From Owenia fusiformis (lineage: Eukaryota > Annelida > Polychaeta > Sabellida > Oweniidae): 64,000 nucleotides of DNA. Positions within the stretch are counted from its first letter, which is position 1, and each line of letters starts with the position of its first letter. Below, one piece after another: positions 4,139 to 41,432 of this stretch. Both the position numbers and the translations under genes were made by a program. The stretch is from assembly GCA_903813345.2 (NCBI GenBank), contig CAIIXF020000004.1:17095513-17159512 (forward strand), written 5' to 3'. The notes beneath the pieces were generated by a model. The model saw only the letters and a program-made list of their open reading frames with translations, made no database searches and had not been told where the DNA came from.

Positions 4139-4149
4139 AAAATAATTAA

Positions 4150-6640
4150 AATTGGTTTTAAGGACGTTTCATGTTTTAAACAAGTTCAAAATTCCAAGAA
4201 CTGTACAATATCAGGTCTGAATTTACAAATTTTAGGAAAGACCTTGGATGAGCCTTAGATTTTTTACATCTGTCCCCCTTTGATGATATTTATGGTTTTG
4301 TAGTATGGAACTAAGATGTACAAAATAATTTAGATGGGTTTTAAGAAGGTTTAGGAATTTTAACAAGTTCAAAATTTGAAGAATTGTACAATATCAGGTC
4401 TGAATTTACGAATTTCAGGTAAGACCTTGGATGAGCCTTATATGTTTTATATTTGTCCCTCTTTGATGATATGTATGGTTTTGTAGTGTGAAACTAATTA
4501 GTAAAAAATAATTAAGATGAATTTGAAGAAAGTTTAAGGATCTTAAATGAGTCCAAAATTTGAAGAATTGTACAATATCAGGTCTGAATTTATGAATTTC
4601 AGGTATGACCTTGGATGACCCTTATGTCATTAAATCCTTCCCTCTTTGATGGTATTTATGGGTTTATAGTGTGGAACTAAGAAGGCTTAAGGATTTTTAA
4701 CAAGTTCAAAATTTGAAGAATTGTACAATATCAGGTCTGAATTTACGAATTTCAGGTAAGACCTTGGATGGCTCTTATGTTTTTACATCTGTCACTCTTT
4801 GATGATATGTATTGTTTTGTAGTGTGGAACTAAGATGTAAAAAATGGTTTATGGTTTTGAAGAGTGTTTAGGGATTGCAATGAGTCCAAAATTTGAAGAA
4901 TTGTACAATATCAGCTCTGAATTCTCCTTGGACGACCCTTTTGTTTTTTACATCTGTTCTTCTTTGATGATATTTATGGTTTTATAGTGTAAACTTAGAT
5001 GTAAAATATAATTTAGATGAATTTTAAGAGATTTAAGGATTTTAACAAGTTCCAAATTTGAAAAATTGTACAATATCAGGTCTGAATTTACGAATTTCAG
5101 GTAAGACCTTGGATGGCTCTTATGTTTTACATCTGTCTATCTTTGATGATATGTATTGTTTTGTAATGTGGAACTAAGATGTTAAAAATGATTCAGATGG
5201 TTTTGAAGAGTGTTAAGGGATTTTAATGAGTCCAAAATTTAAAGAATTATACAATATCAGGTCTGAATTTTCGAATTATAGGTATGACCCTGGACGACTC
5301 TTTTATTTTTTACATCTGTCCCTCTTTAATGACAGTTATAGTTTTATGGTATGGACCTAAGATGTAAAATATAATTTAGATGAATTCTAAGAAGGTTTAA
5401 GGATTCTAACAAGTTCAAAATTTGAAGAATTGTACAATATCAGGTCTGAATTTGCAAATTTTAGATAAGACCTTGGATGAGCCTTATATTTTTTTACACA
5501 TATCCCTCTTTGATGATATGTATGGTTTTGTAGTGTGGAACTAAGATGTAGGAAATAATTTAGATGCATTTTAAGAAGGTTTAAGGATTTTAATTTGAAG
5601 AATTGTTCAATATCAGGTCTGCAATGAATGAATTTCAGGTATAACCTTGTTTAGCCCATATGATTTTAACACCTACCCCCTTTTCATAATTTGAATAGTT
5701 GTGTGGAAATATGTATAATTTACATCGATTTTAAAGAAGCTTAACATTTTAAACAAGTTCAAAATCTTGGCGTATTGTACAATATCAGATCTGAAATTAA
5801 TGAATTTAAAGTATAACCTTGCTTGGCCCTTATATTTTTAACATCTATCCTTTTTTGATGATATATATGATTTAGTAGTGTGGAGCTCATATATAAAACA
5901 TAATCAAGATGGGTTTTAAAGAAGTTTAAGGTTTTAAATAAGTTCAAATTTTCACAAATTGTACAATATCAGAGCTGATATTAATGAATTTTAGGTATTG
6001 TGTTTTTACATTTATCCCTTTTTGATGTCATATAATTATGCTTTAGTAGTCTCTAGTTGAAAGCCCGTGGTTGAACCAAGATGTAAAACAAAATTTAGAC
6101 AGGTTTTAAAGAAGTTTAAGGTTTTAAACAAGTTCAAATTTTGACGAATTGTACAATATCAGAGCTGATATTAATGAATATTGGGTATTTAGGTGAGCCT
6201 TATTTTTTTACATCTATCCCTTTTTGATGACATATATGCTTTAGTAGTGTTGAACTAAGATGTTAAACAAAATTTAGACAGGTTTTAAAGAAGCTTAAGG
6301 TTTAAACAATATAAAAAATTGAAGCATTGTATAATAACAGGTCTGGAATTTATTAATTTTAGGTATAACTGTGAATGGCCCTTCTTCTTTTTTTACATAT
6401 ATCTCTCTATGATAACATATATGGTTTTGTAGTATGAAACTAAGATGTAAAACATAATTTAGATGGGTTTTAAGGAGGTTTAAGGTTTTAAACCTGTTCA
6501 AAACTTGACAAATTGTACAATATCATATCTTCTGACATTAACGAATTTCAGGTATGTATCTCTCTATGATGATAGATATGGTTTAGTAGTATGGAACTTA
6601 GATGTAAAACATAATTCAAATGGGTGAATAATGTTTAAAT
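4150..6640. repeat. Tandem array, about 180-bp units (left arm)
   Basis: The marker GTACAATATCAG recurs near 4203, 4387, 4570, 4724, 4901, 5067, 5248, 5431, 5600, 5778, 5960, 6150, 6328 and 6508. Units also share a TTTGATGATAT..ATGGTTTTGTAGT block and a GATGTAAAAAATAATTTAGATG block. Units diverge more toward the centre of the element. Confidence 0.85.
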
Positions 6641-6959
6641 TCTCCCAAAATAATAAGAATGGTAACCATTCTTATGGAAAAATAATACATTATTGTAGAA
6701 ATCTTTAGTTTTCCTGAAATAAAGGGTGCACTTTTGGGGATTATTAGCAAATAGACATGAAAAGGAATGACATAAGCCAGAAATATTCAAAAAGGTCCAT
6801 GTGCAGTATGGCAAGTGATTTTAGACGGTCATATATTTCACCATGAGTACTTTCTGGGCATAAATACAGTGGTTTTTATTTTAAAAAATATGTTTTCTTT
6901 CAAGTGAAGTCCCCATGAAAATTATAAATTGGGACCCCATGTCAAAATGTTTAGAGCCA

Positions 6960-7800
6960 ACCAAGGTTATACTTGAAATGTAGTGTTAATTGCCGAATTA
7001 ATATTGTACAATGCGCCAAGATTTTGAACATGTGTAAATCCTTAAACCCTCTTAAAATCCATCTTAATTGTTTTTTACATCTTAGTTCTACACTACAAAA
7101 CCATACATATCTTCAAAGAGGGACAAATGTAAACAATATATGGCTCACCAAAGGTCTTACCTGAAATTCGTAAATTCAGACCGGATATTATACAATTTTT
7201 CAAATTTTGAACTTCTTAAAATCCTTAAAGTCCTTAAACATTCTTAAAATTCATCTAAATTATATTTTACATTTTAGTTCGTTACTATGAAAGCAGAAAT
7301 ATCATTAAAGAGGGACAGATATAAAAACATAAGGGTCATCCAAGGTCATAAATTCAGACCTGATATTGTACAATTCTTCAAATTTTGGACTCATTTAAAA
7401 TCCTTAAACTTTCTTCAAATCCATCTTAATTATTTTTTACTAATTAGTTTCACACTACAAAACCATAAATATCATCAAAGAGGGACAGATGTGAAAAATA
7501 TATGGCTCATCAAAGGTCTTACCTGAAATTCGTAAATTCAGACCTGATATTGTACAATTCTTCAAATTTTGAACTTGTTAAAATCCTTAAACCTTCTTAA
7601 AAACCATCTAAATTATTTTGTACATCTTAGTTCCATACTACAAAGCCATTAATATCATCAAAGGGGGACAGATGTAAAACATCTAAGGCTCATCCAAGGT
7701 TTTACCTAAAATTTGTAAATTCAGACCTGATATTGTACAATTCTTTGAATTTTGAACTTTTTTATTCATTAAACTTCCTTAAAACCCATTTTAATTATTT
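6960..7800. repeat. Tandem array, about 180-bp units (right arm, inverted)
   Basis: About five copies of the left-arm unit in reverse orientation, marked by ATTCAGACCTGATATTGTAC near 7175, 7350, 7540 and 7725. The difference in copy number between the arms indicates expansion or contraction after the inverted structure formed. Confidence 0.85.
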
Positions 7801-8542
7801 TTTACATCTTAGTTCCATACTTCAAAACCATATTTATCATCAAAGAGGGATAGATCTGGAAACCATAGGCATCAACTATAGTCATACACAAGATCACCCC
7901 TCTCAAAAATGTCAAATTTTTCAAAAAATCAACAATTTTTTTCTCGGCTCCTACTGATTCAATTAGTTTGAACCTTTCAGGGCTTATAGCCCTGCTACTG
8001 GGCACTTCACATGAAATTTTTCAATGTCTTTCAGTGTCTGATTGAAAAGTGAGGCTCTAAATAGTAAGAAAATGGATCACGAATTTGCCCCCTGGGGTAC
8101 ATACTTTGTACTATTTTTCAAATTCTGGAGGAGTAATTGGCATTATTTATTTTGCAAATGATTCATATATATAATGTCTATGTATGTAACTTAAAAACAT
8201 CAAGATATCTAAAATTATTGAAGATGAAAAAATTATTTTCCGGGGGCAGGGTGTTTTTGGGGGGTGGGGGGCTAACCCCTGAAAAAAAAGAATTATGTAC
8301 CACTCTGTGAAGCTATCACCTAGGTAGAATTTTCATCCAAGACTTCCCTCTAACTGAAAATGCTGCCAAACCAACTATACTCAATTTATTAAGAATTTTC
8401 CTCCTCGCTCTTAGAGTATAACGTATACCATAATGTCATTTCTTCCAACAAATGAATAAATACACAGCTTTCTAAGATCTAAATAAATTATACAATTTAT
8501 GAATTAGATCAATTATCACACAAAGTTTGTTAAAATAAATCA

Positions 8543-16194: not shown

Positions 16195-19100
16195 GTGAGC
16201 AAGATAATCTATGTTTGTGTCCTCGACTCCCAACGATCTGAATCAATAAAATTTCTAATTCAGATACGAGACTCGGTAGCTAGTTTGTAAAAAAGATTAC
16301 CCATATTGGTTCTAAAATACCTGGTTAGGAAAACAAATTAAAGGATATCTACATATCTTACATTATTTCTAGATTTCGACAACTAACTGTATTTACATTA
16401 CAGACGGTAACAATAGGGTAAAGTAACACGATGACGATTACACTAATCCCTGTCACTTTTTGCTATATCAAAGAAACTATCATATATTGGGATGGCTAGA
16501 TTGGTGGTGTTATTCGATGAGATTTTTCAGAATTGTTAATCCTACACATTGCTACCTACAACCTATGACATCATCAATCTACCTCATATAGCATAGGTTA
16601 TTTGATGCACCAAAAAGTGACCGGGTAAATCGGACAGGTCTATTGTTTGCATCTAAAGTGATTTTGTCCGGATTATTTCAGATCTATTTGAAGGAAGTCT
16701 GCTATTTTGTATCTTTAGATTTAAGTTTAAGGAACCTGTGGAAGGAAAAAATTTTGAAAAAATTGCTACACCTGCACATGTTATTTTCTGGTACAAAATA
16801 AAGTATGAAGGCATGTGTGTATTTCCTTGATTTTTTCAGGTAAGTATTATGTGTTCTTTTAGACTATCTGGTAAGAGGTCAATGGCAATCTAAACTTGTA
16901 GAGAACCTTGGAGAAGAAGTTTGGAAAATTGAAAAGGCAGACATTTTCTTGAAATATCAGCATTTCCTGGAGTTACCTTTGACCTCTTTCCAGGTTTACC
17001 AAAAGAGGACAATGAAATTATGCTTTCCTAAAAAGGCAAGGAAATACACGTCCTGCCTGCATACTTTATTTTGTGCCAGAAAATAATATGTGCAGGTATA
17101 GCAATTTTTTCAAAATGTTTTCCTTTCACCAGTACCTTAAATGTATTATTTAGAAAATATAGTATATCAAATTCTAAATTTTGCCAAGTACGATTTACTA
17201 TACGAGCTTCTAAGGTTCTTTCAAAAAGGTTTCCGACAAAAAACTTGCCAAAATATTGAATTAAAACAACTGAACGTTGATACCTTATAGGAAAGTACAA
17301 GATAATATAGAGATTTCTGTCTCGCAGTCAATCTGAAAATGTGGGATTATAACTACATCGTTCTTATGTTTGCAGGTAGCGCGGCTGTCTTTGGGAATTC
17401 TTGCGAGAATGGTGGAAACCCCTGTTCGTCAAATGGTGTCTGTGTTGGGTTGTTCGCAGAACCATTTTGTCTCTGTCAGTCGGGATACGGCGGGGACATC
17501 TGTAACACGACAACATCGAATAACACATGTCCTGGCTGCACAATACCGGATATGGGCAACGCATGTGACGCATTCCCCTGCCGTAATAATGCCACGTGTG
17601 TTAATTGGTTCGGCGGATTTAAATGTCTCTGCGAAGAGAACTCCCAAGGACAATTTTGTGAGAGCGCTGAATTGTGTTTTTTGTGCGAGAGTTTGCAATT
17701 CACCTATGATACATGCCCAATAGATCAGACAAACAAGCTGATTGGCAACCAGCTTCGAGTAAAAGATCGCCATTCAAAAGCCTGGTGCATTCCTGACACA
17801 AGGTGAGGTTCACACTCTTTGTCTCTTTGTTATACATAATTTACAAATGAACGTGTCAAATAATTGTATCAACGCATTGATGTGGTTGTCAATGCATCTT
17901 CTTCACTAATACTAATTACATTGACGTAACGTCAAAGTACCAAAATGGGGGACCTGTCTAAGTTAGAGTTCGATAAGATTTTTTCACAATAGTAAGAGGG
18001 ACCAAATGTGAATATTGCGACTTCATTTAAATACCAAAGTTGCAACCGCATTGTTTCGCCTAAACTATACGACTCTTTATAAAACTGAGCCAATTTAAAA
18101 TCCGCAACTTGTCTTATAAGTAAGTTTAAATCAGGAAAACCAACCTAGCTAAAACACAGGTAGTTCCCCCATTTTGTTACGTTGACGTTGCGTCTGTCTC
18201 CCTTGTTGGTAAGTGTTTAGCTGCTCGTATTATGAATACAAACTTGTTCAATTTAGCATGTTTTCATTTTTCTCTTTGGGAAACCTATATCATTTTTCTG
18301 GTGTAGTTTTTCACGTTTTCCTTGTTAATAGAAAGGTTAAGTTACACGCTCAAATTCAAACCGTGAACTTGAACGCGCAAGTTCACGCTCTATACACGTG
18401 AACTTGAATGCGCAAGTTCACGCTCTAGTACACGTTTAAGAAAATGTTCTGTTAAGCTACCCGTCTGAAACCATGTCCGTGGATGTGGAGGCATATTTAT
18501 GTTGCAACTGTTACAAAGTATAAGGGTCATGACTCTATGGTGTATTGGTTAGCACTTGGGACTCGTGTCTGTTAGGCTAGGGTTCACATCCAATCGATTG
18601 AATACAATTTTGTTTTTATGTCCCCACCAAAAAGTGGTGACATGCTGTTACAGTCTCCGTTTTTGACCAAGGAGGATTGGCTCCCAGGATCGAAACTCGA
18701 TATTTTCCAACAATGAAAACGTCGAAATGTCGTTATTTTCTGAAATTAAAACCGACTATAAATTCAAAATAAACAGTTCAAAAGATTCGAACCAATATCT
18801 CGATCATTTCTTGTGAGTTTTGGAATTTTTCGTTTGGAAATAAGACCAAAATTCACGATTTAAATGTTGAAGTGAACAAAATGGCGGCTGTTTGAATTCG
18901 AATTTTGTATTACGACATACCCATATATGGGACAGAATATCGGTGGTGCACTCTGGGAGCCAATCCTCCTTGGTTTTTGACGGCGGTTGGCGATCGACAG
19001 TCGGCGTCTGTAACAGATTCTTACAACTTCCAATAGCTTAACAAATACTGTATAGACTGACGTCAAATCATCGACATTTTTACAGAAGTTCAAAGCCGAC

Positions 19101-22100
19101 TTTATATTTCAGATTTGACCTTCAATAACCTTTTCAAGGTGAAAAGGGTATCTTTCAACTTGCTTCAAATTGACCAATTTTTTCAAAATCATCTACAAGT
19201 TATCAGATGCAGAAGTTCAAACCTGACTTCAGATTTAACCTTCAATGACCTTTTTAAGGTCAAAAAAAGATTTGACATCCAATGACCTTCTCGGGGTCAA
19301 AAAAGGTATTGTTCAACTTGCTTCAAATTGACCAATTTAGTTTTTCAAAATCATCTAAAAGTTCTCAGAAGTTCAAATCTGACTTAAGTTTAATCTCATA
19401 ATATTGTGAGCTTCTAATTCAACCACTTTCAATTACGTTTATAGTATCACATTTTGCTCACATTAAGGGCGGACGCAATTCCAAAAAATGCCTCGTTCGC
19501 AAATCAAATGTAGTGATAAGGCAATAGTAGGCCCTGGTTGTCATTTCATTTCGTTTAGTAAACATAGTATACTAAACCCCGGGTTAAACTAGCCCCGCCT
19601 ATTTATAATATACGAAATGAAACAAAACCGTAACATTTGAAGTTGTCATTTACCCATTAAAATGTATTCTTTTTCCTATTAAGGATTGGATTACCAATAT
19701 AACAAGCAAGAGTATCTGTATCAAATATTGACAACTGTACCATCCTAGAACATAGCTAAAATCAACCACGTAATGAGCGACGTAACTGACCTACAGCTGA
19801 GACAGTCTGTACGTAAAAACCTGTAACTTTCACGCTTACCAAGAGGAGGGAAAGCCCCAGAGCTTTAGCAATGACTGACATAATAAGTCTCTTGCGTACC
19901 ACCTTCGTTTGCGCAAATTCTCATCAGTTAATTTTCGAACACAGCGCGTCGTCGTGATGTTCTAATCGATGCAAACATATTCCTTACATATTTCATTATC
20001 TTGATGTGAAAAACAAAGCTATGATATTGGTTAATACGTCAGGAATCAACATAATATTATTCGAAGCGTTATTAGAAAATTTTGAATACGCAATTTTTGT
20101 TTATCGATTTGGACCAATCAGAGGCGTATGTCATCTCAATACACGTTTACATTATAAGCGTATGTCATCTTTGAACTCTGGTGTTGTTAATCCCCCTCTT
20201 ACGCTTACCTGTAGAAAGTAAACTAATCTGACGTCATTTTTCTGCGCGCGCATTGGATTTCACGTTCTTGCTTTGTTGAATACGCGTCTGTAAATTGCAC
20301 CAATATGATAATCTCATGTAAAAACCTGTTAACTTCACGCTGGCCAACAGAAAATAAACAAATCTGACGTCACTTATCTGCGCGTGCATTGAAGTTTACG
20401 TTCAAGTTTTGTTAAATATGTTTAGCTTAACCTCTCTATTATCTGTGATTATCGAAATGGTGTGTGTTTTCCAGCTATGGTCTGAATGAAACTCAGTAGT
20501 ACATGTACATCTACAAAGACGAATTAACTATGGGTAGCCTTTGTGTTTTCCTTGTTAATTAATATTTTTTGATTGCCGATAAGGTTTTTTTTTTGTTTAG
20601 GTATGGTCTGAATGAAACGGATAAGTACATTTACGTTGATGACGGATGCAGAGCGACTTTCTGCATTAACTTCACGGTTGATTACTGTGCGCAGACGCCA
20701 TGTGATCTTGCTATGTATAGGTGTGAAAACGATCTGGAGGGTGCAACACACAGGTGTATACCACTGAACCCTTGCTCATCATCACCCTGCGAAAATAACG
20801 CCACCTGTGTAAGTGAGGGCGAGACTGAATTTTCGTGTAATTGTACAGAGTTCTTCACTGGCGACATTTGCGATGTTGGTAAGTCTAATAAACGTGTAGG
20901 GTTAAGAGAATGATCCATAGAAAGTTTTACTTTATCCTTTTGTGTCTCAAATATTTTAGCATTTCTCTTCAAAAGGGTGTGTGCATGACTGCATGCATAG
21001 ACAGTACCTTGTTATTCCTCATAGAGATCTTTATAATTTGATATGCCTAGCTATGCGTGAATACCGAATATACATCCACGTTTAGGTTGTGTTTTTTAAT
21101 GGATTTTTATTTCAGTTCAAGCAGTACTTTCAATACATATTAAAATTTTGTCATTTTACAATGTCGTGGGTAAGAGGATAGCACACATATACATCTCGCA
21201 TAATGTAATGTGATTCTAAAATTGAACTCTTGGCAAACATAGCCTAATACAGTTTAGGTTGACGAAGATAAAGTTGTAAGAGTTATCAAATTATACCGCT
21301 TACGGACCGCCATTATATGATGTAGCTCCATTTTCATTTCAGAGATCAATCCATGTGACAGCAATCCTTGTCAAAATGGAGCCAATTGCACCAGGCCGAC
21401 GCCACTCACGATTTCCTGTGACTGCAATTTCAACTCAACTGGAGACTTTTGCGAAATTGGTGAGTGAATTAGAGTACATTTGGGTTACGATTTTTCACCG
21501 CAGTCGAATATGGCCGAAGATACTTGTATCGCATCCGAAGATGGTCGAAGACGCGCCTAGAAATTTGATTGGTTCAAAGTACCCCCACTTGGTTGTACAT
21601 CTTCCCCTGCGACGCATTGCATTGGTGTTCTCCATAGAACGTTTATTACAGAAATAAATTACTCATTACATTTTGAAATTCAGAGTCCCCTATTTGATAA
21701 CATGAGATAAGTAAATTAATTAAGCTTTAACCCACTCATGACTCTTACATGACTCGGTGATAAGTCAAAACTGCATAATTTTGAAAAACAAAAAATCTAT
21801 GTCCTGAGACAGTATTTTAATACTTTTAAAACTATTATGGGAACATGAACAATTAGTTATTGTGAAATGGTGCAAAGATTTGCACCATTTCACCTAACTT
21901 TCGTATATTTTAGTTGTTTTGTTTAGCTATCATTTTCCAATATACTGTTGCAATATAGTCATTGATTGCTTATTTTTTAAATTCAAAGTAGTTCCAAACA
22001 TTTAAAATCTTAGTGTACCTACATTTCATTGCAGCAATTGGCCTCGTTGACTAATATAACACCATAACTTAATGTCCCCACATTTCATTGCACCAATTAG

Positions 22101-25100
22101 TCTCATTACCTAATATAACACCAGCACTTAATGTCCCCACATTTCAGTGCAGCAATTAGCATCATTACCTGATATAACACCATTTCTTAATTTCCCCACA
22201 TTTCATTGCAGCAATTGGCCTCATTGACTAATATAACACCATTACTTAATGTCCCCACATTTCATTGCAGCAATTGGCCGCATTGACTAATATAACACCA
22301 TTACTTAATGTCCCCACATTTCATTGCAGCAATTAGCCTCATTTCCTAACATAACACCATTACTTAATGTCCCAACATTTCATTGCAGCAATTAGCATCA
22401 TTACCTGATGTAACACCATTACTTAATGTCCCAACATTTCGTTGCAGCAATTAGCATCATTACCTGATGTAACACCATTACTTAATGTCCCCACATTTCA
22501 CTGCAGCAATTAGCCTCATTACCTAGTATAACACCATCACTTAATGTCCCCACATTTCATTGCAGCAATTAGCCTCATTTCCTAACATAACACCATCACT
22601 TAATGTCCCCACATTTCATTGCAGCAATTAGCATCATTGCCAAATATAACACCATTACTTAATGTCCCCACATTTCATTGCAGCAATTAGCATCATTGCC
22701 AAATATAACACCATTACTTAATGTCCCCACATTTCATTGCAGCAATTAGCATCATTGCCAAATATAACACCATTACTTAATGTCCCCACATTCCATTGCA
22801 GCAATTAGCATCATTACCTGATATAACACCATTTCTTAATGTCCCCACATTTCATTGCAGCAATTAGCCTCATTTCCTAACATAACACCATTACTTAATG
22901 TCCCCACATTTCATTGCAGCAATTAGCATCATTACCTGATATAACACCATTTCTTAATGTCCCCACATTTCACTGCAGCAATTAGCCTCATTACCTAATA
23001 TAACACCATCACTTAATATCCCCACATTTCACTGCAGCAATTAGCCTCATTACCTAATATAACACCATTTCTTAATGTCCCCACATTTTATTGCAGCAAT
23101 TGGCCTCATTGACTAATATAACACCATTTCTTAATGTCCCCACATTTCACTGCAGCAATTAGCCTCATTACCTAATATAACACCATTACTTAATGTCCCC
23201 ACATTTCATTGCAGCAATTAGCATCATTACCTGATATAACACCATTACTTAATGTCCCAACATTTCATTGCAGCAATTAGCATCACTACCTGATGTAACA
23301 CCATTACTTAATGTCCCCACATTTCACTGCAGCAATTAGCCTCATTACCTAACATAACACCATTACTTAATGTCCCCACATTTCATTGCAGCAATTAGCA
23401 TCATTGCCAAATATAACACCATTACTTAATGTCCCCACATTCCATTGCAGCAATTAGCATCATTACCTGATATAACACCATTTCTTAATGTCCCCACATT
23501 TCATTGCAGTAATTAGCCTCATTTCCTAACATAACACCATTACTTAATGTCCCCACATTTCATTGCAGCAATTAGCATCATTACCTGATATAACACCATT
23601 TCTTAATGTCCCCACATTTCACTGCAGCAATTAGCCTCATTACCTAATATAACACCATCACTTAATATCCCCACATTTCACTGCAGCAATTAGCCTCATT
23701 ACCTAATATAACACCATTTCTTAATGTCCCCACATTTTATTGCAGCAATTGGCCTCATTGACTAATATAACACCATTTCTTAATGTCCCCACATTTCATA
23801 GCAGCAATTAGCCTCATTACCTAATATAACACCATTACTTAATGTCCCCACATTTCATTGCAGCAATTAGCATCATTACCTGATATAACACCATTACTTA
23901 ATGTCCCAACATTTCATTGCAGCAATTAGCATCACTACCTGATGTAACACCATTACTTAATGTCCCCACATTTCACTGCAGCAATTAGCCTCATTACCTA
24001 ACATAACACCATCACTTAATGTCTCCACATTTCATTGCAGCAATTAGCATCATTGCCAAATATAACACCATTACATAATGTCCTCGCATTTTATTGCAGC
24101 AATTGGCCTCATTGAATAATATAACACCATTACTTAATGTCCCCACATTTCATTGCAGCAATTGGCTTCATTGACTAACATAACACTATTACTTAATGTC
24201 CCCACATTTCATTGCAGCAATTAGCATCACCTAATATAACACCATTACTTAATGTCCCCACATTTCATTGCAGCAATTAGTATCATTGCCTAATATAACA
24301 CCATTACTTAATGTCCCCACATTTCAATGCAGCAATTAGCATCATTACCTGATATAACACTATTACTGAATGTCCCCACATTTCATTGCAGCAATTAGCA
24401 TCAATGCCTAATATAAAACCATTACTTAATGTCCCCATATGTCATTGCAGCAATTAGCATCAATGCATAATATAACACCATTACTTAATGTCCCCACATT
24501 TCATTGCAGCAATTAGCATCAATGCCTAATATAACACCATTACTTAATGTCCCCATATGTCATTGCAGCAATTGGTATTGGGTTGAGTTTTGATAATTTC
24601 ATGGAAGACAATCCCCTTGTAGAAGTTGTGTTCCTGGATTCTGAGCTTGAAGGGTCCTATTTTGTAGTGAATGCGACGTTAACTGGGGGTGACGGTAAAT
24701 ATGGATTTGTTTACATCTATATTTTATTTTGTTGTAGTGTTTTGTATTGTATTTTATCCTATGACAAGTGAGGTTTCAGGTACATAACAGCGGGATATAA
24801 AATCGATATCTTGGAGGAGCGGGACATATATAATCTCCCGCTGTATATCTCCCGCACCAATATTCCCGGGAAAATGTTTTCTCTCTGTGTAGAAACAGTC
24901 AAAATTCGTTAGAATATCTCGCTATAGCGAAACTACCAAAATGGAAGCAGACGGCGGTAGATATTCCTCGACCAAAACTTCGAAGTTAAGTTAAAATCTT
25001 TTCAATTTATCAGTTCAGGGAATAATAATCAGAGTCTCATAGATAAAAGTCACTTGTCATAGGATAAATTAGTTATGTGATGCTCGATTTTGGATATGGG

Positions 25101-28100
25101 GTATATCCAAAACCTCCCATAACATAACCCTCATGTATTTTGGTGTATTGTATTTATTGTAATTGCATATTTATTTAACTCTGGTCAATAGAGGGTTACA
25201 ATAATAAAGTCACATAAATAAAAATATAAATATATAATATATAAATAAAATTTCAAATAAAACTACAAAATGATATTCTAAATAAGTGAACAGTGCTGTA
25301 TAGAGACCGGCCGAAGGGATGAGTTGGGATATTTATTTTTATGTGAAATATGTTTTTTATTACTGTTCGAGTTATATTAATTTAATAAGTAAATGCACCT
25401 TTTCGTGAGTTTTGATGCAGAATTTATTTTCTGCCGACACATGTGGGAGTCAAAATAAATGTCCAAACAAATACTGGTTATCATGAAAACCACACAGATG
25501 GTAGCATGTATGAAATACAAAGTAGAAAAAGGTGTATGTCCCATGACGAATTTAAAATCATATACTTTTTAGCTTCTATTTAGCACAAATAACATCTCTT
25601 TTGCTATTTTGACGACAAAGCTTGTGATATTTCCCCACAAAACACGATTTATAAAGATAAGACTGTCAACCTCTGCAATTTTTGAGTTCATCTGACCATG
25701 ACAGTTTTGACGAACCATGGTATGAAATCTCTAATAAAGGAGTGTGAAGCACACTATAGCGCAGCGATATTAATCCCACTGAAACGAAGTTCGATGAGGA
25801 TATAGGAAAGCCGTCCGTCCATCTGTTTGTCCGGGCGACAACTCAAATAACAGTTGAGAGATTTGATTCACTTTTTAAAGGCTTATGCCTTATGGGGGTA
25901 AAACCTCTACGCGAGAAGAAATTTTCAATGTGGCCGCTTAATTCAAAATAGCCGCCATTTTTCGTAAAAAATATAATCTTTGATAACTCAAAATGGCTGC
26001 TAAATATCAAAATGGCGGCCATTTTTTAAAAAGACGTCACTACCAGTGAACGGATTTGGTTCAAATTTTATATGATGATGCATAGGGACAAAGTAATTTT
26101 GTTAAAGAAAGAATTTTCAAGATGGCGGCTGAATTTCAAAAAGGCGGCTATTTTTAATAAAAACGTAATCTTTGATAACTGAAATAATAGATGACGGATT
26201 TGGTTCAAATTTTATATGCTGATGCTTAGGGACAAAGGGATAAAGCTTAGGGATAAAAAAACGTAATCTTTGATAAATACTAGTTGACGGATTTGGTTCA
26301 AAAGGAGTGGTATCGATATGGTGAAATTTTGGACATGCATTTCTCTTAAACCAGTAATCAAAACATTCTAAAAATTTTACACATCGTCAATTTAATGGTC
26401 ATCTTTTGGATGGTAACATTATAATTTGAAATATATATAAATACTTTTTTCAATATAGTTTTAGAAAACACATCAGACACTCCTTTTGTTATTGGTATCA
26501 TATGTTCGGAATGAAATGAAACATCTATCCGAACCTCATTGTAACAAAACGACATAAACACAACGTTCTTAGGTCTCTCAATATTGTAATTGTACAAAGG
26601 AAAGTTTGGTTGATTTTAAAAAAGAATCTTGTTATTATTATCTTGTTATCCTGACTTATTCCTAATCATGACTGATCATGTCATCACACTGCCAAGAAAT
26701 TATTTATTGTACACTATTTACTTTGACTAAATATTTACATTTATTGTTCAAGGGACTTCCTACATTTACCCTGCTAGCCCAGCGTGGATTGGAGCCACCA
26801 TAGAAATATTTGTCTATCATGATAATGACGATAATCAAAACTACAACAATGTGGATCACGGCTATAGACAGGTAAAAGATAAATGAATATTTTCAAATAT
26901 GTATTTCCCTATTTGTTTCTGATTGGTATTGCTAATAAATGTTTTGGCTTCTACGTTCTCATTTTTCTTGATTTACCGAGTGACCCGAAACATGCAACCC
27001 TTCAGTATTTGAATAATTTTATAGTTATCTCGTGTACAGTTGTATATAGTTAAAAATGTATTTTTGGCCTTGGAATGCAATACCAACATGTTGTTCAAAA
27101 ATTCAAAGCATCTAATTTTTTTTTACTTTTCGACAATTATTTGGAAATTAAACCGTCGAGCATAAACAGGTTTTGATAAACGAAGACAACAATTCCCAAA
27201 TATATCGAGGAAAGTGTACAACAACAACAAATAGAATTCAAATCCAATATATGTGTAATAACCACTGGCGGATTAGGGGGGGGGGCCTGGGGGCCCGGCC
27301 CCCCCCCCTTGGGTGGGCCCAGAAAAAAAAATTGGGCCCAAAAAAAATGTTGGGCCAAAAAAGGCCTTCAGACCCCAAAAAGTGGGCCTTTTTGGTCATT
27401 CCTGGGCCTTTCAAGGCCTTATTTTTTAATTTCAGGCAAAATTTTGAAGAAAATGGGCCTCAAAATTTCAAAATTTGGGCCTACTTTTTGGTTTTAGGGT
27501 TACCTTCTAGTTTTTCTCTGATTTGAAATTTGGGCCCCCCGCCCCCCTTGTTGATTCCCAGATCCGCCCCTGATAACCCAATGACTAACTAACGAGCATA
27601 ATAAACAAGTCAGATAAGGAAATTGAAAGAAAGTGTGCTAAATTCAATGCCCCGTGTTGGAATCGAACCTAGGTACCTTGGATCCAGAATGTTGGTCTAC
27701 CAACTGAGCTACATGTATAAAGGCTTTAGCCTCTCCACCTGGCCTCTAGTAGCACACGGTGGTTCTCATTCACATATTGCTGTCCACCAATCGCTTCATA
27801 TCCAAATGTGGTCCCAGAAATGGTGACTAACTTTCGCACCACAAAAAAGTCATGAATTGATCTTTAAAACAAATATAGACCAATTGAGAGAACATATATC
27901 CAAACTTTGTTTTCAATGACACTCCAATAGATCAAATTAAACATCATAAGCACCTCGGTTTAATTCTTGATGAAAAGTCAACTTTCAAAACCCAAATTAA
28001 ATATCTAGAAGGTAAACTTCAAAGATTATTAAATCCACTTATGGCAATTCCAAACACTAAAAATATCGAACCTACAATTTCAACCTCCTACTTACAAGAA

Positions 28101-31100
28101 CCTTGATAGAAAAGAAGAAATAGTACTAAATAAGATAAGAGTGAATCGATAATTTAAATCCGATCTTTTTGATCATAATTTCGAGAGACAGCACAACTCT
28201 TGTGCTAGCAACAAATGCGCTAGCGGTGGTTAAACGTGAACTAAACTTAGATGTAACTAAATTCAAAACATTAAAAAACAAGACAAATTTCCTATATTTT
28301 GGCGACAAGGATCTGACAAATAAAAACAATTCTAAAATTTTTAAGGCAGTTTTAAATTTCATTAAACACAATTAAACATGCGATAACAGGAATTCAAATT
28401 CAGGCCACCAATGGGGGTACAGACAGGTAGAAAAACAGATTGTATTTGAATCTATATTTTTCTTATACTAACTATGACTACTATTTTCCTAGTACAACTG
28501 TCTTTTGAGCAGGTGTCCAAGGAATCATAATTTACAACTAACCATTTACAGGAGCTATACATACACAGTCTCTTCTTTATTTCCTGGAAATATTAACATA
28601 ATTGAACCAGTATTGTTCAAGATATAGCGATTTCTTTGGGTTGCGTTTTTTTGAACACCTTGTATATATTTTGAGTTGACTGTAACTGAATTATATATAG
28701 TTGAGTCATATCGTGCCAAATTATTCGCAAAACACTAAATCTAAAATAGGTGAGACAATATACAGGGTATCCATGAATCCTCTTTACAATTTAAATACAA
28801 AGTAGGAGTAAAAAGGAAGACTGCATGGACACCCTCTATACCTTGAGGTCAAGGGAGAATTCTTGATGTCAGAAATTCTAGTGCGGCTTTTTAAGATGCC
28901 AATGGCCTTTTAAAACCCTGTGTACTATACGCCACTGTGTAATGTTATTATAATACTTAAGAACTACCAAACATACGTCGGTTTTGCAGGTTATCGTGCT
29001 TGACGCTAGTTTCCAATGGGTGAACATATCTTACAGCGATCTTCAACTGCTTGTAGTTTGCCCAATTGGTGTAGACGGCGCTAGTGGCTTCGCAGAAGGG
29101 TCAACGGGTAAATATATTCAATGAAACCACAGCATCTGAGATGATACAATTTATTAACTTATTTAACTGATAAAGAATAATAATTATTACCACCTTCCCG
29201 GGGCCAGTTCTAGGGGTTTTAGTGCTAGTTTTAGTAGAAGGCATTCATTTTACTATATCGACCTGAGCAATATGTGACGTCATAGTGGCGGTCCATAATT
29301 GCAGTCAATAATGCAATTAATGACCGGCAATTCCCCCCCCCCCGGAAAACTAGATATCGTCAGGTGCGTAAGATTTTCTTGCTATTTTAGTCTTGGTCAT
29401 TAACGGTGGTAATAATACTAATACCTTCGGCCCGGTATTTCACTATATTGCCCTTCGGAATGACGTTATTGTATTATTGTAACCATGATCATGCAAAGAA
29501 ATAAGGGTTATGCACTGGGAGGTTTTGGATACAGGGAATATCCCGAGGGATATACAATATATCTTCCCGAGGGACCGAAGGGACCGGGGGAAGATGTATT
29601 GTATATCCCAAGGGATATTCCATGTATCCAAACCGACCGTGCATAACTGGTGTATCTCATACTTTTTTTAACTTTTTAAAACTTTTTTAAACTTTTGAAA
29701 AATTCCCGGGAGCGGGATGGATATATTATATCTGCCCGCATTTGGCCTGGAGCGGGACATATACAATATATCCTGCCCGCTCCTCAGATATGATATATAT
29801 TCCCGAGTGATATCTACCCCAAACCCACTTAAGTATGAGATACTAGGAATTATCAAAGGGCCTTGAGAAAGGCCATGGTTTAAATTATTAGAGACATAAA
29901 ATGAACCATATTTTATTGTAATTGTAACAATTTTTTCAGGCATCTCTTCTTTTGACCATTTCTTTTGTTATGCCTTCTCCGGGTACTCCAACTTTACTTT
30001 AACTGGAAACTCATCGCTACCACTAGGTGTTGTGTATACTGGCTTAGCACTTACGGTAAGTTGTAGTGTTTTGACATGCCTGGGTAAATATCATCCATAT
30101 TTCACACATCAATATAATATTATTCCAAGCAATGTGTGCTTTATATTAAACAACAGAGAGATTAAGTTACACGTTCAAGTGCAAACCTTGAACCTGAACG
30201 CGTAAGTTTACGCTCAAGTACACGTTTAAGAAAATTTTCCGTTAAGCTACACGTCTGAAAGTATGTCGGTGGAGGTCTGATGTTTTTAATTATTTTCGCT
30301 TTATTTCACATTCAACCACAATTCAATTACTTTAGTTTCCCTTTTAGCTCATATCAATGGGTGACTTAATACAAAGAAAATGCCTCGTTCGCAAATCAGA
30401 TGTAGTGATAAGGCAATAGTAGGCCCTGGTTGTCATTTCATTTCGTTTAGTATACAAACTGTACTAAGCCCAGTGTATTAAATTAGCCATGGCTATACAT
30501 ATTATACGAAATGAAACACAACTATCACATTTGAAGTTTTCATTTATCCATTAAGGTGCTATGGAAGTTAACAGGAAATGACAAAACAAAAAATGTCAAA
30601 ACCATGCTGGATTTTGACAATCTTTTGAACCAAGATAACAGAGTTCTGTTTGGACCTCCAGTCAGTTTAACTAGTTCCACATATCATTTACATGACTGGG
30701 AACACAATGGAAATGGTCAGAATGACCATAAACATGATGAAATAACCTTTTCAGCCCTCTGAAAATGTGACTGAAAAATAGCTAAGTAGGTGCTCAGGAA
30801 AGGTCACTGAACAGAATCTTTTGACTTTTCAGAAAATGTGCCCAATATATTGCTCTAAATGGTACAATTTTAAGAAATTTCATATCATTCTTAGAAAAAG
30901 AAAAAAAATGAAAAAAGAGAATTTAAAATCGATCTATTTTCCTTTTAACTACAGCCATTATTGTTTCAGACGATTTTTTTTTAAATTCAAAGATTGTATC
31001 ATTCAGAGCAATATATTGGACACATTTTCTGAAAAAATCAAAAGATTCTGTTCATTGACCTTTCCTGAGCACCTACTTTTAGCTATTTTACAGTCACATT

Positions 31101-32490
31101 TTCAGAGGGCTTTTTTTTTATTTATCCTGTTTTATTTAATACAATAATATATGTAAAAAGAAAATTTCCAAAAAGGCGACTTTTCAGAGGGCTGAAAAGG
31201 TTACTAGTATTTCATCATGTTTCTGGTCATTCTGACCATTTTCATTTGTTCCCGGTCATGTAAATGATATGTGGAACTAGTTAAACTGACTGGAGGTCCA
31301 AACAGAACTCTGTTATCTTGGTTCAAAACATTTTCAAAATCCAGCATGGTTTTCACATTTTTTGTTTTGTCATTTCCTTCCATAGCACCTTAAAGGGGTT
31401 TACCAATATAACATGCAAGGGTACCTGTATCAAATATTGGCCACTGTGCCATCCTAGAACAGAGCTAAAATGAATCGCGTAATAAGCGACATGTAATGGC
31501 TCATCTATGCGTAAAAAACTAACTTTTACGCTTACCTGTAAAAACTAGAAAACAGACTAATCTGACGTCATTTTTCATGCTTTGTTGAATACGCGTCTGT
31601 AAATTTCACCAATATGATAATCCTATGTAAAAACCTGTAAACTTCACGCTGGCCCACAGAAAATAAACAAATTTGACGTCATTTATCTGCGTGCGCATTG
31701 AAGTTCACGTTCAAGTTTTGTTAAATACGTGTAGCTTAACCTCTCTACTAATAAAAAAAAGTAATACTTGTTAGTTTGGATCCCGGTTCGTTTTAGCGAA
31801 TTTGCACATTTGAAACGATGGCTGCGCGCTCTTAAAATGCACTATTGACCTATTACTATTGTACCATTCTCTTATACTTCTATATTCCATAATTGTTCAA
31901 ATCTTGCACATGAAAACTGCACATCGTAGAAGCATTTTGGCATGAGTTGATTATTGATTAACGAACTGAGATTCTGGAAAAGGTTTTAAAAGCATTGATT
32001 TTTACCTATCATAAATACACATTAACTACATTATTTACAGATTTCATAAATAAATTAAATATTAAAGTATTCCAAAATCCTTAATATTTATCCAGGTTAA
32101 TTGCTTACACCGCTACGGGCCTGGGCGTTTTACTTCAAACTAATGACTTATTTATCATCCTTAATGATCTAATTTCAGCAATCAAGCGTCGTTTCAACCA
32201 CTTCACCTGCAAGTAGTATTTCCAAGTACCTGATACCTGGGCTATACTCGTATGTCTGCGCGTACCTGGATGCACCCGAATATGAAGATCCCCTGACGAC
32301 TGTCAAGGATGAGTCGAAGCTGCACAAATTTAACGTACCAGCATTCTACACCGGCAACACTACTAATCCTGCCAATGGAATTGCAGAAAACTGTTCGCCA
32401 ACTAACTATGTCATTCAAAACGGCAATGGACCATTCCCTTCTGGTGAAATCTTACCTCGCTTCGTAATTAAGGATCCTATTGATCTCTAG
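16145..32490 (+). CDS. Secreted multi-EGF protein with a novel C-terminal half (5' exon missing)
   Basis: Nine coding exons: 16145-16194, 17376-17802, 20601-20878, 21343-21459, 24569-24694, 26753-26871, 28990-29107, 29940-30055 and 32179-32490. Splice phases agree throughout, giving 553 residues from exon 16145 onward. Order: hydrophobic signal segment (IAPIVVLIFVVSLAAT), two EGF domains (CENGGNPC..CLCQSGYGGDIC and CDAFPC..CLCEENSQGQFC), a Cys-rich stretch, two more EGFs (PCSSSPCENNATC.. and PCDSNPCQNGANC..), then about 260 residues of beta-rich-looking sequence without a recognised domain. No transmembrane segment follows, so it is probably extracellular. The initiator Met is not in the first exon seen: a phase-2 intron precedes it. 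Confidence 0.85.
16727..17140. mobile_element. TTAA-bounded palindromic element in EGF-gene intron 1
   Basis: Left end TTAAGGAACC, right end AGTACCTTAA. The arms pair over about 130 bp through GCTACACCTGCACATGTTAT, GTACAAAATAAAGTATG and GTGTATTTCCTTG. Related arm sequence recurs at 15313-15679 and as a fragment at 42478-42530. Confidence 0.75.
17376..17802 (+). CDS. EGF-gene exon: EGF domains 1 and 2
   Basis: Acceptor GTTTGCAG, donor GTGAGG. Contains two complete six-Cys EGF domains, then a Cys-containing linker ending AWCIPDTR. The frame is also open upstream from an ATG at 17339, giving the hydrophobic leader MWDYNYIVLMFAGSAAVFG; this could be an alternative first exon. Confidence 0.92.
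18530..18595 (+). tRNA. tRNA-like pseudogene
   Basis: Shows an A-box-like TGGTGTATTGGTTAGC and a B-box-like GGTTCACATCC at tRNA spacing. The B box departs from GGTTCGAATCC and the arms do not pair well. Most likely a tRNA-derived relic inside the transposable element rather than a working tRNA. Confidence 0.35.
18663..18976. mobile_element. Nested inverted-repeat element
   Basis: GACCAAGGAGGATTGGCTCC at the left and its reverse complement at 18953-18974. About 310 bp with no frame; inserted in the larger element at 18327-20440. Confidence 0.6.
19100..19400. repeat. Diverged direct repeats, about 190 bp
   Basis: Two copies of a block with CAACTTGCTTCAAATTGACC (about 19157 and 19315) and AAGGTCAAAAAA. 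A related fragment lies at 42545-42680. Confidence 0.6.
20475..20520 (+). pseudogene. Degenerate duplicate of the next EGF-gene exon start
   Basis: After TGTGTTTTCCAG the sequence TATGGTCTGAATGAAAC repeats the start of the exon at 20601, followed by a diverged match to the next about 25 bases. Read in the exon phase it meets TAG after seven codons. A local duplication of about 130 bp would explain it. It keeps an acceptor-like AG. Confidence 0.6.
20601..20878 (+). CDS. EGF-gene exon: Cys-rich stretch and EGF 3
   Basis: The preceding tract TTTTTTTTTTGTTTAG is an excellent acceptor; donor GTAAGT. Encodes YGLNETDKYIYVDDG, a partial Cys motif (CAQTPCDLAMYRC) and EGF 3 (CENNATCVSEGETEFSCNC). Confidence 0.92.
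21343..21459 (+). CDS. EGF-gene exon: EGF 4
   Basis: A single complete EGF domain (INPCDSNPCQNGANC..CDCNFNSTGDFC) in one phase-1 exon, donor GTGAGT. This is the last Cys-rich domain. Confidence 0.92.
22010..24568 (+). repeat. 59-bp minisatellite carrying a 3' splice site in every unit
   Basis: About 43 tandem units of 59 bp. Each contains ATTACTTAATGTCCCCACAT (branch-point-like CTTAAT plus a pyrimidine-leaning tract), then TTTCATTGCAG followed by CAATTAGC or CAATTGGC. The last unit ends exactly at the acceptor of the exon at 24569. Units differ at a few positions (ACCTGATAT, GACTAATAT, GCCAAATAT). A block of 11 units (about 649 bp) is present twice, about 22791-23440 and 23440-24090. Confidence 0.95.
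24568..24569 (+). promoter_or_regulatory. Authentic 3' splice site at the end of the minisatellite
   Basis: The acceptor AG ends at 24568. It is the only copy in the array followed by open coding sequence in phase 1 that continues to a consensus donor. All upstream copies reach TGA or TAA within about 12 codons. Confidence 0.75.
24569..24694 (+). CDS. EGF-gene exon after the splice-site minisatellite
   Basis: Encodes IGIGLSFDNFMEDNPLVEVV and a strand-like continuation ending LTGGDG; donor GTAAAT. Its acceptor CATTGCAG is the last unit of the minisatellite, and its first bases CAATTGG are also part of the repeat unit. Confidence 0.85.
24753..25068. mobile_element. Small inverted-repeat element
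   Basis: A perfect 19-bp terminal repeat, TTTATCCTATGACAAGTGA at the left and its reverse complement at 25050-25068. The interior has further palindromes around GAGCGGGACATATATAAT. No coding frame. Confidence 0.7.
25200..25260. repeat. AT-rich low-complexity tract
   Basis: Run of ATAAATA-type repeats. Confidence 0.6.
25900..26310. repeat. Diverged repeats with AATGGCGGC motifs
   Basis: Repeated blocks with ATGGCGGCTGAATTTCAAAA, AACGTAATCTTTGATAA and GACGGATTTGGTTCAAA, spaced by about 90-140 bp. Intronic, non-coding. Confidence 0.5.
26303..26447. repeat. Dispersed repeat shared with 205-345
   Basis: Direct match over about 140 bp, including GAGTGGTATCGATATGGTGA and TGGTAACATTATAATTTGAA. Confidence 0.75.
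26753..26871 (+). CDS. EGF-gene exon, C-terminal region
   Basis: Encodes TSYIYPASPAWIGATIEIFV then an Asp/Asn-rich run (HDNDDNQNYNN). Acceptor TTGTTCAAG, donor GTAAAA; phase 1 in, phase 0 out. Confidence 0.8.
27263..27572. mobile_element. GGGCC-rich DNA element with 5-bp target duplication, copy 1
   Basis: Left end CACTGGCGGAT; right end reverse-complemented CAGGGGCGGAT. Flanked on both sides by ATAAC. The interior is built from AAGTGGGCCTTTTTGGTCAT-type text with many GGGCC/GGCC blocks. A homologous copy lies at 41433-41774, flanked by a different 5-mer. No transposase frame. Confidence 0.8.
27646..27716 (-). tRNA. tRNA-like sequence, probably a SINE head
   Basis: On the minus strand, A box TAGCTCAGTTGG and B box GGTTCGATTCC sit at tRNA spacing with CTGGATCCA in the anticodon region. 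The acceptor arms do not pair (TACATG against CACGGGG). This favours a tRNA-derived retroelement head or pseudogene over a functional tRNA. Confidence 0.5.
27905..28080 (+). pseudogene. LINE remnant downstream of a reverse transcriptase
   Basis: One frame reads DTPIDQIKHHKHLGLILDEK and on to KLQRLLNPLMAIPNT. HKHLGLILD is the conserved block that follows the polymerase domain in many non-LTR reverse transcriptases. Only a short fragment with no intact ends. An open plus-strand frame at 28169-28375 may be part of the same remnant. Confidence 0.55.
28645..28674. mobile_element. Solo mariner-like terminus
   Basis: Reverse-complemented it reads TACAAGGTGTTCAAAAAAAC, the right-end type of a Tc1/mariner-like element. 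No partner end was found nearby. Confidence 0.35.
28761..28838. mobile_element. 78-bp miniature inverted-repeat element
   Basis: Left TACAGGGTATCCATG; right reverse-complemented TAGAGGGTGTCCATG. Extremely short, with only about 40 bp between the arms. Confidence 0.5.
28990..29107 (+). CDS. EGF-gene exon, C-terminal region
   Basis: Encodes VIVLDASFQWVNISYSDLQL and continues to FAEGSTG. Acceptor GGTTTTGCAG, donor GTAAAT. Confidence 0.8.
29180..29420. mobile_element. Possible small inverted-repeat element
   Basis: TAATTATTACCACC at the left, near-complementary GGTGGTAATAATACTA at the right. Contains a run of 12 C at about 29333. Weak evidence. Confidence 0.35.
29508..29645. repeat. Hairpin with GGGATATAC/GTATATCCC arms
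   Basis: GGTTTTGGATACAGGGAATA and GAGGGATATACAATATATCT pair with GTATTGTATATCCC and GATATTCCATGTATCCAAACC on the other side. Similar GAGCGGGACATATACAATAT text follows at 29700-29790 and at 24810. Confidence 0.6.
29940..30055 (+). CDS. EGF-gene exon, C-terminal region
   Basis: Encodes ISSFDHFFCYAFSGYSNFTL and LPLGVVYTGLALT. Acceptor TTTTTTCAG, donor GTAAGT; phase 1 in, phase 0 out. Confidence 0.82.
30151..31746. mobile_element. 1.6-kb terminal-inverted-repeat element, copy 2
   Basis: Left AGAGAGATTAAGTTACACG, right reverse-complemented AGAGAGGTTAAGCTACACG. Internal sequence matches copy 1 (18327-20440), for example GGCAATAGTAGGCCCTGG at about 30412 and 19520. It is interrupted by the fold-back element at 30551-31393. 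Confidence 0.7.
30551..31393. mobile_element. TTAA-bounded fold-back element nested in copy 2
   Basis: Left TTAAGGTGCTATGG, right CCATAGCACCTTAA. The outer arms pair over about 210 bp (through AACAGAGTTCTGTTTGGACC), and a second inverted pair (30750-30880 with 30960-31110) follows inward. A fragment of the same family lies at 52297-52445. Copy 1 of the host element lacks this insertion. Confidence 0.8.
32179..32490 (+). CDS. EGF-gene last exon with stop
   Basis: 104 codons including TAG at 32488-32490. Begins with a Ser/Thr-rich linker (QSSVVSTTSPASSISK), then YLIPGLYSYVCAYLDAPEYE, and ends FVIKDPIDL. No membrane anchor or GPI-type hydrophobic tail. Confidence 0.88.
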   Translation, partial: QSSVVSTTSPASSISKYLIPGLYSYVCAYLDAPEYEDPLTTVKDESKLHKFNVPAFYTGNTTNPANGIAENCSPTNYVIQNGNGPFPSGEILPRFVIKDPIDL

Positions 32491-33341
32491 ATTTCAGTAT
32501 TCCCCCAGATCCAATGTGCTTTGTATCATTTCAATGCTAAAAAGCATCATTCCAAATAGTTGGATAATCTAAGATAAAACAACAGTTGAAACACAACTCG
32601 CATTGACATGATCTCTATGCTATGTACGCCTTAAAATTGACACAAGAATTAAAGCCACCATATTCTTTTACACAGTTATGAGAACTATCTAAGATGCATA
32701 ACACGTCATAATTTAGACGCCCTTCAGGACGCCAAGGAAATTGATCGGAAAGAGATCGTTAAGGACTGGACCAGAGTCAAATGTCCGAACGTTTTTAATG
32801 AATACAACACAAGAATCAAATTAATGTATAAAACTAGATGAATAATATATTTTTATAAACATGCAAAATATATTTTTATTCCTAATATAAAAAGTGTTTA
32901 TATATAAAATGTTGTACCATGGAACTCAACTGTCGGAATAGTCAACTGACATCATAAATTATGCATTTCAGTCAATGTCATAACATTCCTAGGTTTTAAG
33001 CCATGGTCAAATCTTAAATCAGACACTTCAATTCCAAATCCCAATGAAAAATGCGCATGCGCAATAAATACATTGGAATAAATTTCGTTCGTTGGTAATA
33101 AAGCACTTGTTGCTGAAACTCTGAACATGCAATGTTAGAGGTGCTACCTACAGTAACCTGCGACAGTTACTGAACTGCCATCTTATTACATGTACATAGC
33201 TTAACTTTGTATTTGCTAAATGACCATTGCATTGATATAGGCCCATTGATATAGGCTCATTCATATAGGCTATTTTATATAAGCTCATTGATATAGAAAA
33301 GGCTCATAGGTTTGTTTCCACTTAGTTGCTACTCATATTTT
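32491..33341. other. Convergent 3' intergenic region
   Basis: Lies between the stop codons of the EGF gene (plus) and the LamG gene (minus), so it holds both 3' UTRs. AATAAA occurs on the plus strand at 33063-33068. A short tandem repeat based on CATTGATATAGGCT lies at about 33230-33305. Confidence 0.55.
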
Positions 33342-38454: not shown

Positions 38455-39240
38455 ATCACAGTATCATCTGCGTATAACTTTAAAACTTTAAAAGTAGCAA
38501 CTTTAAAAGTACATTTAGTTGTGCGTCATCCATAAGTGGAATAGGTTCACAACTATTGTCAAGTAAAAAGGCTTCTACATCATTTATAAACAAAGCATAG
38601 AGCAAAGGGGAGAGATTTTCTCCCTGACAAGATGAGCTAAAAAAATCAGACTTTTTAACATTATCATGAGATACACAACTCTTAATATTATTATACATAT
38701 TCTGGATTACAGTTAAAAACCTTCCTTCGATTCCATAACATTAGTTTGTGCCATAGGCCAGCTCTCCACACAGAGTCAAACGCAACCGAATAATCTACGA
38801 ATCCACAATAAAGTTTTTGCTTCTTAGTCAAAAGAATATCAATCAAGCATTTCAAAACAAAGATGTGATCAGTTGTGGAATGAAACTTCCGAAATCCACA
38901 CTGATTAATATTTAACAATTCCATTGAATTTACGAAGTCAGTCAGTCTTACATTCAACACATGAGTGAATAATTTAGCACAACAGCTTAACAATGTTATA
39001 CCTCTATAATTTTTGGGATCGTTCAGATTACCCTTTTTCTTGAAAATCGGTTTAATAATTCCTTTCAACCAGTCACTAGGCATAACTCCACAGGTTAACA
39101 CTTTATTAAACAATTTCATCCATATGTCAATCAATAATGATTTACTGTACTTAATATACTCATTTAATATATTATCCATACCTGAAGACTTGCCATTCTT
39201 TAAGGATTTGATAGCTGAATAAATTTCATCAGCTGTGATG
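38455..39240 (-). pseudogene. LINE reverse transcriptase domain, frameshifted
   Basis: Reads ITADEIYSAIKSLKNGKSSG, PIFKKKGNLNDPKNYRGITL, LYCGFVDYSVAFDSVWR (catalytic Asp block A), GENLSPLLYALFINDVE, then in another frame LYADDTVIFANY (block C). The frameshift lies just before YADD. Confidence 0.88.
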
Positions 39241-39245
39241 TCACA

Positions 39246-41205: not shown

Positions 41206-41432
41206 GGAGGATTCCTATCTCATTGTGTGAGTCCCTCTACCAGCTCTAGCTCCACCTAGGGTAGGTACGAAATATTTCGAACAGAATGCGTGACATATAC
41301 GTAATTCGCGTGAAAAGTCCGAACGAAATGCGTACATTTTTTTCCGACGCTCGTATTTTTGCTGTGTAGACGATCTTTTTTTAGAAATTTTTCTACAGAA
41401 ATATTTTTGCTTGACAATTACCAGGTAAAATG

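Follow-up and report, generated by a model that had tools for sequence, protein, structure and literature searches.

Tandem copies of a splice acceptor in an EGF gene of the annelid Owenia fusiformis: a mirage-type minisatellite that is most likely neutral

In a 64,000-nucleotide stretch of the genome of the annelid Owenia fusiformis (contig CAIIXF020000004.1, here C4, positions 17095513-17159512; the whole stretch is called the window below), intron 3 of a gene encoding a protein with EGF domains ends in a 59-bp minisatellite that has copied the 3' splice site of the following exon 43 times. The copying of the splice acceptor is real. Most likely the array is harmless and ignored by the splicing machinery, a by-product of a repeat-rich genome and not a gene switch. 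It is one of many in this genome, belongs to an already known kind (the mirage minisatellites of amphioxus), and is most likely neutral.

Architecture of the array

Tandem Repeats Finder places the array at 22009-24573 of the window (period 59, 43.5 copies, 91% matches, score 4038). Cut at the acceptor, it resolves into 44 acceptor sites, comprising 43 decoys and the working site at 24568; 42 of the 43 spacings between them are 59, and one is 56. Each unit consists of a 33-nt segment, X, and a 26-nt spacer, Y. X holds 26 intronic nucleotides, from a branch-point-like CTTAATG to the CAG, followed by seven exonic ones. The last X is the acceptor of the exon at 24569-24694 (exon 4), and the right edge of the array lies inside this exon, so that the final seven bases of the array are exon 4 coding sequence. 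The original prediction had a 3' splice site copied about 43 times, with the final unit as the working acceptor, and both statements hold: the last copy alone is joined to an open exon. The predicted span, 22010-24568, needs a small correction at its start, which lies at 22009. Seven copied exon bases had also been correctly called, but not their sequence, given as CAATTGG: 36 of the 44 copies read CAATTAG, CAATTGG being the other form.

The splice signals have largely survived the copying. The AG is present in 42 of 43 decoys (43 of 44 copies), the exception being unit 2, which reads GCAC. TTAAT is kept at 41 of 44 sites, its last A lying 22 bases upstream of the exon, and would be the candidate branch point. 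We searched the assembly (498,259,871 bases in 525 contigs, with C1-C12 summing to 477 Mb) for a 25-mer of the unit at up to three mismatches. All 44 matches fell at the array, and the backward-read control gave none, which excludes a chance origin. As for an origin as a dispersed or transposon-borne repeat, no further occurrence of the unit turned up in the assembly searched, whose gaps could hide copies.

Host gene

The host gene has eight exons and seven GT-AG introns, with an open reading frame throughout, and runs from about 17306 to 32491 of the window (Table 1). Pfam matches in the joined protein place EGF domains in its first half; the second half has no match outside the host gene at E up to 1. 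A route to the ancestral acceptor through a paralogue was dropped, as the C-terminal half gave five matches at this threshold, all within the host gene. Exon 4 is a predicted exon, backed by the eight-exon open frame, by its fitting phase and by the EGF matches of the joined protein. Elsewhere in the gene, the acceptor and start of exon 2 have a decayed single copy at 20446-20508 (plus strand). Its acceptor, at 20475, is 126 bp upstream of the true start at 20601 and scores 8.1 bits, and its frame meets a TAG after eight codons (by eye).

The array is known from one assembly and exon 4 by prediction, and the whole arrangement might accordingly be a misreading, with the array an assembly artefact or exon 4 unused. 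This is highly improbable. The 44 copies differ from one another by many distinct variants, a block of 649 bp is duplicated within the array, the copies occupy a single place in the assembly, and exon 4 fits the phase and frame of the eight-exon gene.

Decoy acceptors, reading frames and donors

With the G that exon 3 contributes placed in front, every one of the 43 decoy frames ends after 5-12 codons, in agreement with the original estimate of about 12, and the sole frame that stays open is that from the last copy. The decoys themselves are well formed. Scored with a matrix of 194 acceptors of the same genome, which were picked by score near match edges and so give a somewhat flattered distribution, they have a median of 6.88 bits; 31 of 43 lie at or above the working site, and 41 of 43 exceed the 5th percentile. 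Such scores show that the decoys are not poor acceptors. (This matrix supersedes one built from 19 sites, in which the working site scored 0.48 and 30 of 43 decoys lay at or above it.)

Donors are a different matter. None of the 53 GTs in the array reaches the 5th percentile of 195 donors of the genome, a set picked in the same manner and likewise somewhat flattered. At the density of the host gene's other introns, 14.3 donor-like GTs would be expected, although the repeats are not independent. The array thus offers the in-frame stops of a poison cassette exon, in every decoy frame, but not a downstream donor of its own. Without a donor in the array, decoy use could only lengthen exon 4, to 185 nt from the nearest decoy and to 2,660 nt from the farthest.

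In exon definition, the spliceosome pairs an acceptor with a donor across the exon. We think it likely that the array reflects neutral minisatellite turnover at the junction, tolerated through exon definition, and that it is a mirage-type minisatellite. A tandem duplication of about 59 bp would once have straddled the intron 3/exon 4 junction, and growth and turnover by unequal exchange and block duplication would have followed; the block structure is observed, the process presumptive. The series of 43 decoys is itself observed, with a branch-like element, a pyrimidine tract, an AG and seven exon bases in nearly every copy. Because a usable donor within about 126 nt follows the last copy only, exon definition would favor that copy, and the pre-mRNA is probably spliced mostly to it. 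The array would then be removed within the intron and hence be close to neutral. Arrays of this kind recur in other genes, as described below, because in the sampled motor-protein genes intronic minisatellites of this genome cross acceptors as readily as any other intronic point.

Turnover within the array

The array bears the marks of duplication in blocks, including a recent one of 11 units (Table 1). The last stretch is nearly identical to one two units upstream, which implies that the working acceptor took part in the turnover. Exon base +6 stayed G at the working site throughout, where 36 of 44 copies have A. Unit 1 differs from the consensus at nine positions (five of them private), as does the inner unit 36 in number; the last unit has just three differences, and its variants are common to unit 42. 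The number of variant types per column does not differ between the acceptor part (0.81) and the spacer (0.85; P 0.50).

Junction-copying arrays elsewhere in the genome

Other exons were sampled from the best candidates of myosin (92 rows) and kinesin (136 rows) searches of the same genome, so that the comparison covers motor-protein genes of one genome. Two groups were dropped before counting: 12 rows from a single cluster on C9 in which a myosin exon is repeated, and 18 rows of kinesin array copies on C2. This left 198 rows, of which 196 were covered; two of 82 pre-listed regions (two matches) lie outside the sample. In the kinesin search, a single exon piece had appeared 18 times at equal spacing, leading to locus L027, which was excluded from all rates because it was chosen for its array. 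Without it, the final sample comprised 106 loci, 195 matches and 44 arrays, with junction-spanning calls made by eye.

By this reading, 16 of the 44 arrays copy a junction (12 acceptors and 4 donors), and the other 28 do not. Fifteen of the 16 are at matched exons; the remaining one, the 91-bp array of L023, is at an exon that the match list does not contain and enters no rate. The real exon is joined by the last copy in 13 acceptor arrays (L027 included) and by the first copy in the four donor arrays. The last batch (20 loci, 24 matches) gave the same result, with 4 of 10 arrays copying a junction. Nine other acceptor arrays were scanned for donors: seven had no GT at the 5th percentile and eight none at the 25th.

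Three loci met in these searches are described individually. L027 (G000:C2:23265000-23270600, minus strand) is a kinesin gene with 18 copies of a 159-bp unit that holds an acceptor and about 130 exon bases; in each of its 17 decoys the frame comes to a TAA (by eye), and the last copy continues into the real exon. L023 (G000:C4:24495000-24504990) is a single myosin gene in which arrays of 83, 91 and 260 bp occur, and two of these three copy acceptors together with exon pieces. At C9:37986009-37994334 (minus strand), one N-terminal stretch of the myosin head (approximately profile 18-84) is matched twelve times at irregular spacing; the matches may belong to a single gene with a large set of mutually exclusive exons.

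Are junctions favored targets? A direct screen looked for further copies of the 24 bases at each junction. Copies turned up for 13 of 193 acceptors and 5 of 194 donors, and for 3 of 195 exon centers, with L034 and L043 (acceptors) and L019 (donor) as doubtful matches. Intronic control points were copied at 6.3-9.3% on the acceptor side and 4.1-6.9% on the donor side. Copying thus affects acceptors at about the rate seen for any intronic point, with neither enrichment nor avoidance, and donors somewhat less often. An earlier calculation with random placement of the ancestral unit had suggested enrichment (12 of 34 arrays versus 3.5 to 7.0 expected, depending on the assumed junction density; P 3.5e-5 to 0.023), but has been superseded. 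When the exon matches were rotated against the arrays taken whole, the observed count was 17 versus 14.1 (P 0.18), and the 17 include L043 and the second array of L119, where edges overlap without junction copying. Moreover, array coverage does not rise towards junctions. The rotation result, the flat coverage and the similar rates of the direct screen together lead us to reject junction enrichment.

Weighing neutrality against use of the decoys

Several observations weigh against a fully neutral array that splicing ignores. The working acceptor is weak (5.75 bits, the 14th percentile of the 194 acceptors), which leaves room for competition, and the last three decoys would yield exons of 185-303 nt, a size that exon definition can manage. 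Minor alleles are rarer in the acceptor part of the unit (mean count 1.4 versus 4.3 per column in the spacer), and the seven copied exon columns are low in variant types, at 0.29 per column (significance not computed). The absence of donors is less striking when one considers that a single 59-bp unit has been repeated, and two of the nine other arrays scanned do contain donor-like GTs (two in L081, four in L093). Finally, with regard to neutrality at other loci, decoy exon variants in L027 are mostly silent (6 versus 2 not, P 0.004; 6 versus 3 over a slightly longer stretch), as are 3 of 3 in the 91-bp array of L023. In these two arrays, decoys may have been reseeded from a constrained real exon, or may be translated.

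In the frame of the real exon, the silent excess is not seen in L093 (0 silent, 2 not), L035 (4 and 4) or the donor array L092 (0 and 1). It is absent too from L081 (4 and 10), L058 (8 and 23, plus a stop) and the 260-bp array of L023 (19 and 41, plus two stops), although part of these last three counts is misalignment (L058 and L081 have an odd first spacing and the 260-bp array an indel).

A functional alternative is an acceptor ladder that works as a rheostat. Splicing to a decoy would lead to a stop within 12 codons, and so to decay or to an EGF-only secreted protein, with array length setting the amount of full protein. The early stop in every decoy frame would suit such a device, as would the 31 decoys that match or exceed the working site and the short exons that the nearest of them would yield; intronic array length can alter splicing in human TERT (PMC3948165). 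We nevertheless consider it unlikely. The array contains no donor-like GT, the decoy acceptors and the spacer are alike in variant types, and other junctions show the same arrangement at about the rate of any intronic point. Amphioxus mirages, moreover, are reported to be silent (PMC3087553, PMC3902484). The original prediction had proposed just such a tuning of full-protein output by array length. This proposal is not supported: the decoys have no partner donor, and variant types do not set the acceptor part apart from the spacer, although minor alleles do. What speaks for tuning is the anatomy of the array and nothing beyond it.

A milder alternative is unregulated noise, in which decoys, chiefly the last two or three, would be used at a few percent, tolerated, and cleared by nonsense-mediated decay. 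The weakness of the working acceptor would favor this, as would the neighboring decoys, whose branch-like element, tract and AG are identical or almost identical to its own. In contrast, donor-proximal choice would favor the true site, and we regard noise of this kind as improbable. Length-dependent leakage to decoys is possible. Neutral turnover tolerated through exon definition calls for no gene-specific role of the array, since acceptor copying in the sampled genes is as common as the copying of any intronic point.

Other repeats in the window

Two arrays of 165-bp units, with about 4.9 copies each by Tandem Repeats Finder, lie at 50753-51552 and 54242-55052. Their consensus units look mutually reverse-complementary, and the two are perhaps the ends of one element. 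A large field of 183-bp repeats occupies 4085-7855, with its right part (7001-7855) apparently in the opposite orientation. On the minus strand, 38691-41214 holds open frames with endonuclease-like and reverse-transcriptase-like stretches, which we take to resemble a non-LTR (non-long-terminal-repeat) retrotransposon.

Table 1. The array, the exons of its host gene and the junction-copying arrays found at other loci (positions are those of the window)
Feature	Position	Strand	Basis or remarks
59-bp minisatellite, X(YX)43, 44 acceptor copies	22009-24575	+	Tandem Repeats Finder and cutting at the acceptor
First X copy, 33 nt	22009-22041	+	left side adjoins unique intron; A to G at the branch-like A
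Recent block duplication, 11 units (649 bp)	22776-24073	+	units 14-24 versus 25-35, differing at 5 of 649 sites
Terminal two-unit duplication, working acceptor included	24385-24568	+	1 difference in 66 nt compared
Working acceptor region of exon 4	24543-24568	+	branch-like TTAAT, short pyrimidine tract, CAG
Exon 1	17306-17802	+	read from open frame; putative 5' end
Exon 2	20601-20878	+	open frame
Exon 3, EGF-like	21343-21459	+	Pfam and open frame; donor TTG/gtgagt of the array-bearing intron
Exon 4	24569-24694	+	entered in phase 1; donor ACG/gtaaat
Exon 5	26753-26871	+	open frame
Exon 6	28990-29107	+	open frame
Exon 7	29940-30055	+	open frame
Exon 8, includes stop	32179-32491	+	open frame
Acceptor-copying arrays			L023 (twice), L029, L035, L058, L070, L076, L081, L093, L112, L114, L119
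Donor-copying arrays			L020, L033, L092, L113

Discussion

The closest known relatives are the mirage minisatellites of amphioxus, reported from Adh3, the globins BflGb6 and BflGb9, TnC and PGBD5. Their units of 10-160 bp lie across an intron-exon boundary, 3' or 5', many of the copies bear AG or GT signals, the repeats are unstable in length, and regular splicing is said to be undisturbed (PMC3087553, PMC3902484). The array described here shares with them a unit that spans the boundary (26 intronic and 7 exonic nucleotides with a 26-nt spacer) and copies that bear splice signals (the AG in 43 of 44, TTAAT in 41 of 44). It differs in its 44 copies, as against 3 and 6 in two BflGb6 haplotypes, in the mere seven exon bases per copy, and in a host that is not amphioxus. 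A further difference is that recurrence has here been measured against intronic control points.

Human genes offer further parallels. The CBS variable number tandem repeat (VNTR) c.1444_1467+7 has 16-21 repeats (PMC2630376) of a 31-bp unit which, to judge from the name of the marker, comprises an exon end and the first seven intron bases. It is likewise multi-copy and variable in length, but sits on the donor rather than the acceptor side. In CBS c.844_845ins68, the intron 7/exon 8 junction is duplicated, and the distal copy is spliced to give normal mRNA (PMC2630376). This is one extra 68-bp copy, a known human polymorphism, unlike the array here. The text of that report calls the sites donors, whereas the study it cites has 3' splice sites in its title. 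Human segmental duplications contain internal tandem repeats at exon-intron boundaries, which have been considered as an origin for new introns (PMC2812944); these have units of about 30 bp with a mean of four copies, occur in recent paralogues, and are much exonic.

Two other minisatellites have been connected with splicing. The copy number of the 38-bp VNTR in TERT intron 6 affects splicing (PMC3948165), but this repeat lies more than 1 kb from the junctions and RNA pairing has been proposed for it, whereas the array here touches the junction. In Caenorhabditis elegans, the intronic CeRep25B is over-represented near alternatively spliced regions, to which it is linked via short motifs (PMC4039745). 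Like the present array it is an intronic minisatellite; its abstract does not mention a copied acceptor. Among the matches listed in the open-licence literature, none described such arrays from an annelid or any other non-chordate. In flies, false AG signals within the polypyrimidine tract have been inferred to be selected against (PMC10946897), which lends interest to the tolerance of decoys here.

A far-reaching proposal, starting from the noticeable share of sampled acceptors that minisatellites have copied (13 of 193), would be that this lineage regularly has to choose among near-identical acceptors and that heritable differences in array length set the amount of full-length protein in genes like the host gene; we judge this distinctly improbable. 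Whatever the use of the decoys, the array is a natural experiment on acceptor choice, with dozens of near-identical acceptors that differ mainly in how far they lie from the donor and the true exon, and the same genome holds many further such loci. Junction copying by minisatellites may be frequent in a second animal genome, beyond amphioxus and single human genes, and it has a bearing on intron growth and intron gain.

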